Positions 62,307-64,000 of a DNA stretch of 64,000 nucleotides are shown here, one piece after another. The number at the start of each line of letters is the position of its first letter. Positions within the stretch are counted from its first letter, which is position 1. Under the pieces are notes generated by a model that searched no databases, had not been told where the DNA came from, and saw only the letters and a program-made list of their open reading frames with translations. A program made the position numbers and the translations under genes. This DNA comes from an uncultured Monoglobus sp. (GTDB taxonomy: Bacteria > Bacillota > Clostridia > Monoglobales > Monoglobaceae), in the NCBI GenBank assembly GCA_947628795.1, contig CANRBF010000003.1, positions 1 to 64,000 of the forward strand, read 5' to 3'.

Positions 62307-62367
62307 ATTACACGAAACGGCCTAATTATTACATGAAAAAATTTTTCGATTATTTTTGTGTTATAAT
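62307..62367 (+). promoter_or_regulatory. Array promoter B with tandem sites
   Basis: ATTACACGAAA (62307-62317) and ATTACATGAAA (62328-62338), 21-bp period, then TATAAT (62362-62367). No recognisable -35 box; the second repeat lies at that position, as in activator-dependent promoters. Confidence 0.5.
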
Positions 62368-62421
62368 TATTTTATAAAAAAGAAAAATGGAAATTTGTAT
62401 GAATTTAAAACAAATTTGCAG

Positions 62422-62485
62422 CTTACGCAAAGAAACCCGCGACTTACGCAAGGTCGCGTTCATAGAGAAATATTTGTGATATAAT
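62422..62485 (+). promoter_or_regulatory. Array promoter C with tandem sites
   Basis: CTTACGCAA at 62422-62430 and 62443-62451 (21-bp period), then TATAAT (62480-62485) with a poor -35. The predicted transcript would begin with a GTGGGAT/ATCCCAC hairpin (62493-62511). Confidence 0.5.
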
Positions 62486-62509: not shown

Positions 62510-62575
62510 ACTTATACATGAATGTTTCACACTTGGACATAAAATATTGACGGCCGAAATCGCGCGCATTATAAT
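62510..62575 (+). promoter_or_regulatory. Array promoter D with tandem sites
   Basis: ACTTATACATGAA (62510-62522) and ACTTGGACATAAA (62531-62543), 21-bp period, then TTGACG (62547-62552), 17 bp, TATAAT (62570-62575). Confidence 0.65.
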
Positions 62576-62636
62576 GAATGAATAAGAGAAAGTCATAAAA
62601 TAAAACGCAGCACAATATCGGGAGAATACATGAATA

Positions 62637-62706
62637 TGACCGATGTTGCAATATATTGACCGATGTTGCAGATGATATTGACAGTCGAAATCACGCGGCA
62701 TATAAT
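62637..62706 (+). promoter_or_regulatory. Array promoter E with tandem sites
   Basis: TGACCGATGTTGCA at 62637-62650 and 62657-62670 (20-bp period), then TTGACA (62678-62683), 17 bp, TATAAT (62701-62706), a full consensus. The promoter core resembles that of D over about 35 bp. Confidence 0.7.
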
Positions 62707-62746
62707 CGAATTTGAAGATGGAACGCTTCAGGCTCGCCTTCCTTAA

Positions 62747-62794
62747 CCCCTCTCCGTCAGGCTTCGCCTGACACCTCTCCCCAAGGGGCGAGGC
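62747..62794. repeat. Dispersed double-hairpin element, copy 5
   Basis: CCCCTCTCC, GTCAGGC-TTC-GCCTGAC, ACCTCTCCCC, GGGGCGAGGC. It has the same layout as 1423-1468 and lies 40 bp downstream of array promoter E. Confidence 0.7.
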
Positions 62795-62988
62795 AAAAAC
62801 GGACAGGCTGCGGCCGGAGCCGCGCAGCGGGTTCGTGGCACTAACGTATTCCGATTGCACAAATAAACGAGGCCACAAATCACTAAATCATCTAGGACAT
62901 GCGAGGTCGTCCGCCCTACGACAATGGGCGAGGCAGGCAGACGGGTGAATATGGCAAATAAATATACAAAAAATATTGAAAAATATAA

Positions 62989-63017
62989 TTGACAATATTA
63001 TATCAATATGATATAAT
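62989..63017 (+). promoter_or_regulatory. Promoter F of the BspA-like gene with palindromic operator
   Basis: TTGACA (62989-62994), 17 bp, TATAAT (63012-63017). A perfect inverted repeat ATTATATCA-ATA-TGATATAAT (62997-63017) fills the spacer and includes the -10 box, a likely repressor site. Confidence 0.8.
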
Positions 63018-63021
63018 TACA

Positions 63022-63157
63022 ATTGCAACACAGGTTAATACTTTGGAACGGCTTTTTATGATGAAAAAGTGCTTTTCTCATGTGACAAAAACGGAATCGG
63101 CGCCGTTTCGGTCATTGCGGCTTGTGTTGCGATGATCGAAGCGGCGCGCTTTTTGTT
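63022..63157 (+). ncRNA. Structured leader RNA candidate
   Basis: ATTGCAACACAGG (63022-63034) can pair with CTTGTGTTGCGAT (63121-63133) over 13 bp including two G-U pairs. Inside lie a CTTTTT/AAAAAG hairpin (63052-63069) and a hairpin with TGAC/GTCA (63083-63086/63111-63114) and AAACGG/CCGTTT (63089-63094/63103-63108), giving a three-way junction. A short AAGCG/CGCTT hairpin with T-rich tail follows (63139-63157). The predicted transcription start (about 63024) is at the foot of the outer helix. It does not match a riboswitch class I know. Confidence 0.5.
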
Positions 63158-63203
63158 TAAAAAACGAAAATAATTATATAAAATATACATAGGAGGTAAG
63201 GTT

Positions 63204-64000
63204 ATGAATATCAAAAAAGTACTGTGTACCGCGGCGCTGTGTCTGGCGTTTTGTTTGACGCTGTGCGGCTCGGCCTTCGCGGCGAAGGAAGCTGACGGCT
63301 GGACCTATACCGAGAACGCGGACGGCACGATAACGCTCAACGCGTATAACGGAAGTGTCACGGCCGTGTTCAACATTCCGTCGGAGCTGGGCGGCATGAC
63401 CGTGACGGGCACCGACGGTCAGCTTTTCAGAGATCCGGAGCAGGCCAATGCCTTGAAAGAGGTCGTTATCCCCGGCTCTGTAAAGACGATCGGCTACGGA
63501 GCGTTTATGAATTGCGCCGAGCTCAGTAAGGTCACCCTGTCCGAGGGAGTGACCGAGATAGGCGAATATGCTTTCAGGTTGTGTACGGCATTGAAAGATA
63601 TAACTCTGCCCGACAGTCTTAAAGTCTTGGGCGGCAACTCATTTATTCGAAGCGGCCTGACATCAGTCACAATTCCCAAAAACACAGAGAGCGTGAGTTC
63701 GACCGCTTTTAACACCTGCTTATCGCTTCCAGAGATAAGCGTCTCGCCCGAGAACACTCACTTCGAGTCTGTCGGAGGCGTTTTGTTTGACGAGGATATA
63801 ACGGAGCTTGTGTGCTATCCCGCGGGAAAAATCGGCAGCGAATACACCATACCCGCAAGCGTCAAAACTATAGGAAACAGAGTATTCACAAATCTTTCGT
63901 CTATCACCGCCCTAAACGCCGAGGCGGGCAGCGAGTATTTTTCATCCGAAAACGGCGTGCTCTTTACCAAAGACGGCTCGGTATTGGTCGTGTATCCGAC
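63204..64000 (+). CDS. BspA-like leucine-rich-repeat surface protein (partial)
   Basis: Runs off the window; 265 codons are visible. The signal peptide (1-26, ending SAFAAK) is followed by LRR_5/BspA-type repeats with the recurring pattern L..V.IP..V..IG..AF..C..L (EVVIPGSVKTIGYGAF, VTLSEGVTEIGEYAF, ITLPDSLKVLGG, VTIPKNTESV, YTIPASVKTIGNRVF). Such proteins are secreted and often mediate adhesion in gut Firmicutes. AGGAGG lies 7 bp before the ATG. Preceded by promoter F and a structured leader. Confidence 0.88.
   Translation, partial: MNIKKVLCTAALCLAFCLTLCGSAFAAKEADGWTYTENADGTITLNAYNGSVTAVFNIPSELGGMTVTGTDGQLFRDPEQANALKEVVIPGSVKTIGYGAFMNCAELSKVTLSEGVTEIGEYAFRLCTALKDITLPDSLKVLGGNSFIRSGLTSVTIPKNTESVSSTAFNTCLSLPEISVSPENTHFESVGGVLFDEDITELVCYPAGKIGSEYTIPASVKTIGNRVFTNLSSITALNAEAGSEYFSSENGVLFTKDGSVLVVYP

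Follow-up and report, generated by a model that had tools for sequence, protein, structure and literature searches.

A promoter-proximal leader RNA of Monoglobus probably represents an undescribed riboswitch-like attenuator class of Clostridia

The leader RNA of a BspA-type gene near the end of the analysed stretch of DNA (the window; 64,000 nt of an uncultured Monoglobus sp.) probably belongs to an undescribed class, absent from Rfam 15, of promoter-proximal, cis-acting, riboswitch-like transcription attenuators in Clostridia, as judged from structural models of the leader and its relatives. More tentatively, and with somewhat less than even confidence, we propose that these RNAs form a widespread new riboswitch class of the Clostridia, with a pseudoknotted aptamer and a fixed transcription start in the closing helix, which would sense a signal and control a large regulon of cell-surface and small proteins. 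Identifying the signal would make the regulation of the surface proteins testable. The sequence-only reading of the locus had suggested a riboswitch or a small regulatory RNA beginning at its own transcription start. The case for a structured cis-acting regulatory leader is supported by the conservation and covariation of the RNA, by its conserved promoter and by the terminator and antiterminator; the ligand-binding part of the suggestion stands as a proposal only.

All features of the window leader lie on the + strand. A sigma-A-type promoter (62989–63017) with a TTGACA −35 element, a 17-nt spacer and an extended −10 element (TGATATAAT, with TG upstream of TATAAT) matched the consensus at 12 of 12 positions, and its position predicts a transcription start at about 63022–63025. 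No more than a few nt from this predicted start lies the 5' strand of helix P1 (63022–63036), which pairs with 63119–63133. P1 comprises 13 bp (63022–63034/63121–63133), extendable to 15 bp (63022–63036/63119–63133). It is the same 13-bp helix that had been noticed by eye between the RNA 5' end and 63121–63133, and it was present in the minimum free energy fold (−36.3 kcal/mol) of the 112-nt nascent transcript. P1 is adjoined by a conserved joining segment, UUAAUA (63035–63040), identical in the three closest homologues and largely retained in 50 members of the family. The sequence-only reading placed two hairpins inside P1. Inner hairpins do occur, and the enclosed part is better described as a second helix, P2 (63043–63052 with 63102–63111 in the fold), bearing weaker hairpins. 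One of the enclosed elements is the P3 hairpin (63069–63094; alignments A3 and A6), whose A-rich 3' strand (63087–63094) doubles as the 5' strand of a pseudoknot. The fold of the 136-nt leader surpassed those of 200 out of 200 shuffled sequences (z = −4.7).

Beyond 63147, the winning fold switched to a 22-bp hairpin (63100–63147; 63100–63121 paired with 63126–63147, loop 63122–63125), which together with the following U tract (TTTTT, 63150–63154) is predicted to be a strong intrinsic terminator. The loop and 3' arm of this hairpin constitute the 3' strand of P1 (63119–63133), so that P1 and the terminator are mutually exclusive. A short T-tailed hairpin had been proposed here as a possible terminator; the T tail and the terminator assignment held, and the hairpin proved to be part of the long stem that competes with P1. 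Between the window genome and a close relative (G010), 5 of 29 terminator pairs differ and all five are still paired. The 22-bp stem is particular to the window copy and this close relative. Downstream, a Shine-Dalgarno sequence (AGGAGG, 63191–63196) precedes a gene starting at 63204, the frame of which (1476 codons) extends beyond the window end. Its 5' part (63204–63998) encodes a secreted BspA-type leucine-rich repeat (LRR) protein; the in-window part matched LRR_5 (PF13306, E 5.5e-29), in agreement with the BspA-like product named before.

Exact and degenerate patterns for the RNA 5' end gave a 25-nt match in only three genomes of the genus, showing that sequence patterns alone miss the RNA family. 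One of these matches, in genome G005, had a diverged interior and a different LRR protein downstream. A first covariance model, built from the window copy and two relatives (three sequences), detected many further matches along its full length in genomes of this genus and family. For a second covariance model, R2, 50 non-redundant copies were aligned (alignment A6). Two loci (L064 and L073) were excluded as probable false matches. With R2, the window genome contained 17 candidate copies at E values up to 0.01, 15 of them below 0.001. The window copy, itself among the 50 sequences of R2 and already a seed of the model with which the others were detected, scored 61 bits (E 4.1e-8 in its own genome), and the best copy in that genome scored 118 bits.

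In R2 searches, three congeners carried 23, 27 and 14 copies and three members of other families 10–12 copies each, most of the genomes compared being draft assemblies. In a sample of the class Clostridia, matches were found in 87 of 391 genomes and 51 of 222 genera, about a fifth, with per-genome copy numbers that are lower bounds since the best eight candidates per genome were scored. In a phylum-wide sample, one of 398 genomes matched, namely the window's own. The presence of 10–27 copies in several genomes, and of the RNA in about a fifth of the genomes of the class, represents control on the scale of a regulon outside the scope of Rfam. A single-contig genome of the same genus, G002, contained no copy, in contrast to 14–27 in three relatives, which suggests it as a natural contrast for tracing the signal or factor involved. 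No copy of the element was found on plasmids, and no viral contig contained two of the 5'-end patterns or encoded a relative of the LRR gene. Copies with 79% identity to locus L159 were seen in two unannotated "Bacteriophage sp." GenBank records from human faeces (MT835845.1, 2076–2235; MT837627.1, 2221–2346); the records may represent bacterial DNA, or the element may truly be carried by phages.

The covariation of the family supported both P1 and a second, interleaved helix. In the 50-member alignment, P1 showed double changes in 11 of 11 counted pairs and 98.4% of cells were paired; the compensatory changes in the outer helix that had been called for among homologues are therefore present. 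Over the whole structure, 97.7% were paired, versus 37–54% in slid registers. The second helix, AAAAAUGC..GCUCU with GGAGC..GCAUUUUU, was 99.5% and 93.1% paired in its two parts and is interleaved with P1, thus forming a pseudoknot. The family architecture is a P1-P2-P3 rod plus this pseudoknot, and it replaces the closed three-way junction of the sequence-only reading. An independent set of 88 matches (87 distinct) from other families, found with a model without the pseudoknot pairing, gave similar values: P1 was 99.5% paired, the two pseudoknot helices were 99.3% and 93.0% paired, and the three variable pairs of the first pseudoknot part showed 33 double changes. The search model did, however, include P3, which shares the A-rich strand of the pseudoknot. 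P2 is long and variable in sequence across the family; its strands paired with their own partners at a mean of −12.5 kcal/mol, compared with −5.0 kcal/mol with the partners of other members. Alignment A6 also contained A5 and U5 strands that hardly vary, along with a P3 5' arm rich in U (columns 72–76, 87–91 and 191–195); together these could give rise to a U-A-U triple helix or to a strand-exchange switch.

This conservation of pairing bears on attenuation by a leader peptide, in which a small frame such as 63069–63176 would be translated and the position of the ribosome would set the fold. The frame is open in the window and in G010, and its indels relative to G005 are multiples of three. 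However, it matched nothing elsewhere in the order, being confined to the window genome and G010, no Shine-Dalgarno site was seen, and the other members of the family keep the RNA pairing rather than any one frame. As a conserved translated ORF, 63069–63176 is largely refuted by this lack of conservation, and we consider leader peptide attenuation extremely improbable.

In canonical copies, P1 is followed by the composite sequence GCAGCAAUCGGAGCUAUGCAUUUUUCGUGCGUGGCUUCGGUUGCGCACUUUUUU, the last part of which is a terminator hairpin. The 5' half and loop of this terminator can alternatively pair with CAAUCGGAGCUAUGC to form an antiterminator, and the antiterminator/terminator pair was present in every canonical copy. 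Because gaps in the MAFFT alignment of the terminator loop precluded a count of antiterminator pairs, own and foreign pairing were compared in a permutation test. The observed sum of own-partner pairing was reached by 0 of 20,000 permutations in the family set and by 0 of 10,000 in the class-wide set. A control region showed no partner specificity in the same test. The pseudoknot shares its GGAG..GCAUUUUU strand with the antiterminator and its AAAAAUGC strand with P3, which implies two states. As isolated duplexes in five copies, P3 had energies of about −6 to −10 kcal/mol, the pseudoknot −11 to −17 kcal/mol and the antiterminator −17 to −22 kcal/mol. Computed folds of canonical copies consisted of the rod plus either the antiterminator or the terminator. 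Established by computation are the helices, which covary and exclude one another, as well as the promoter and how the elements are oriented relative to genes.

We hypothesize that these elements act as a switch. Transcription would begin at the first bases of P1, and the nascent RNA would fold into the P1-P2-P3 rod. In canonical copies, the antiterminator (CAAUCGGAGcuaUGC with gcGUggCUUCGGUUG) would then form and RNA polymerase would enter the gene, so that the first state, P1-P2-P3 plus antiterminator, would correspond to read-through. If instead the P3 3' strand (AAAAAUGC..GCUCU) paired with the 5' half of the antiterminator (GGAGC..GCAUUUUU), the antiterminator would be blocked and the terminator would form, the second state, P1 plus pseudoknot plus terminator, leading to a stop. 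A ligand or protein stabilising the pseudoknot would be expected to turn the gene OFF; we infer both this direction and the signal that would drive the switch. Two hallmarks of riboswitches were found, namely covarying structure in the 5' leaders of genes and, by computation, an expression platform with mutually exclusive structures.

The same switching logic would apply if the leader were controlled by a protein, that is, by an RNA-binding antiterminator or repressor, a sub-case of the attenuator reading that we regard as possible, if on the whole doubtful. The conserved segments UUAAUA, GCUCUAUUUUCGCAU and AGCAAUC remain unpaired in one state, at least in part, and would suit recognition by a protein, and a regulon mixing surface and small proteins is consistent with such control. 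However, an architecture of pseudoknot and antiterminator is equally that of riboswitches.

The window copy has the features of the R2 family: P1, the conserved segments and the promoter at the fixed distance. Its pseudoknot has a degenerate 3' strand (63146–63153, by A6 column mapping), which retains 6 of 8 A-U-rich pairs, and P3 contains a C-C mismatch where G010 has a G-C pair. It lacks the second terminator module found in G005 and elsewhere, and P1 itself would serve as the antiterminator, facing the 22-bp terminator made from the P2/P1 region. The intact P1, the directly competing terminator and the missing second module indicate a derived member with a simplified platform. The window copy is a diverged outlier of the RNA family and not the best one for study.

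The promoter was a constant feature of the family. An extended −10 element (TGnTAnnnT) ended 1–8 nt ahead of the element in 138 of 146 copies (3–5 nt in 136), compared with 2.7% at the same spot in shuffled upstream sequence. With this fixed distance, the RNA would start no more than a few nt from the foot of P1. The promoter directly ahead of the RNA and the start near 63024, both read from the window alone at first, thereby find their counterpart across the family. The next gene was co-directional with the element 152 times and on the opposite strand 38 times, and start codons clustered about 45–57 nt downstream of the modelled core.

Judging from domain matches, the downstream products are mainly secreted and most often BspA-type LRR proteins. 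LRR_5 was found in 40 of 68 distinct downstream proteins of the family set. Class-wide, it occurred in 8 of 46 downstream proteins and Cu_amine_oxidN1 stalk domains in 6 of 46, alongside SLH, CHAP and LytTR domains and several small uncharacterised proteins. In the window genome, 4 of the 17 elements precede one of about 19 LRR_5 genes (probability 1e-5, assuming about 2100 genes). The downstream genes are functionally mixed and point to no metabolite. As targets, BspA-type LRR surface proteins, secreted stalk-domain proteins and small cysteine-rich proteins are plausible host- or community-facing parts of gut bacteria. One such small cysteine-rich protein, of about 60–80 aa with the pattern GKDCxGNG..ECCCDECxYxxCC, was encoded repeatedly behind the element, across several bacterial families (loci L068, L160, L165, L169, L195, L216, L226 and L245).

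The genomic context also bears on whether the RNA could be a stand-alone, trans-acting sRNA, a promoter-RNA-terminator unit of 130–190 nt whose neighbouring gene is incidental or served by read-through. Nearly all copies have a promoter and a terminator of their own, tandem copies occur at 14 loci, and for 38 of the 87 class-wide copies, about 44%, no gene with an evident ribosome site lies within 130 nt. We nevertheless consider this explanation unlikely for the family, given the excess of co-directional genes, the tight start distance and the recurrence of LRR_5 and stalk-domain genes behind the element; a pure sRNA would moreover have no obvious need for a conserved antiterminator able to disrupt its terminator. 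For some copies a trans-acting role is possible, as about two fifths of the class-wide copies have no obvious near gene.

At the 14 loci with two copies of the element, the copies were mostly about 200–300 nt apart, for example at positions 260 and 478 of L100, 3039 and 3249 of L104, 3043 and 3238 of L106, and 1501 and 1726 of L155. Each copy had a separate promoter in the loci read, and the tandem copies could be two switches in series.

The cis-acting attenuator reading was compared with known RNA classes. At the gathering threshold, the 4227 families of Rfam 15 gave no match in the window and 40 related loci, in line with the failure to match the purine, THF, c-di-GMP-I, TPP or 6S consensus by eye; a permissive E value yielded only weak chance matches (in the window region, L015, L146 and six further loci). 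A keyword search of the main texts of openly accessible papers cataloguing bacterial structured RNAs also returned no match. With riboswitch attenuators, the RNA family shares the 5' leader position, a conserved closing helix, a pseudoknot and an exclusive antiterminator/terminator pair, as well as the start-codon distance and the occurrence at several genes per genome. Unlike transcription-attenuating riboswitches, it has a promoter at a fixed distance, begins inside P1 and has no match in Rfam.

T-box leaders use alternative antiterminator and terminator structures and occur in many copies in Bacillota, and the RNA family shares this leader design. A T-box leader was nonetheless rejected as a candidate: the scanned members had no T-box match in Rfam and showed no UGGN consensus, and the Pfam lists of downstream genes contained no synthetase or amino-acid genes. 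The raiA RNA is likewise a structured RNA common in Bacillota, described in PMC11477304 as unclear with respect to trans or cis action. In contrast to raiA, the RNA family is without an Rfam match, sits close to genes that run in the same direction, and includes a promoter and an attenuator.

According to the same paper, the c-di-GMP riboswitches of C. difficile target surface adhesins and small proteins (PMC11477304), and c-di-GMP-I and c-di-GMP-II riboswitches thus resemble the RNA family in their many copies per genome and in the kinds of genes controlled. This resemblance speaks for a riboswitch of an unrecognised type for c-di-GMP or another GGDEF product. However, the Rfam covariance models for c-di-GMP riboswitches matched nothing, and the distribution of GGDEF domains does not follow that of the RNA: no GGDEF domain was detected in G008 (a draft assembly, 94% complete) with its 23 copies, whereas the complete, one-contig genome G002 encodes 14 GGDEF domains and has no copy. 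The window's own genome had three GGDEF matches. A riboswitch for c-di-GMP or a related product is therefore very unlikely.

Some further features were observed close to the window leader. The segment at 62330–62440 has the appearance of a decayed 5' gene end, from a further gene of the BspA type: its promoter region and the sequence ATGAATTTAAAACAAATTTGC are similar to what lies ahead of LRR genes in genomes G004, G006 and G003 (L012, L013 and L014). A promoter-like stretch occurs twice in closely similar form (TTGACGGCCGAAATCGCGCGCATTATAAT and TTGACAGTCGAAATCACGCGGCATATAAT; 62543–62580 and 62674–62711). The intergenic sequence at 62743–62919 is repeated at another place in the genome with 89% identity (L004), and in part near LRR genes of congeners.
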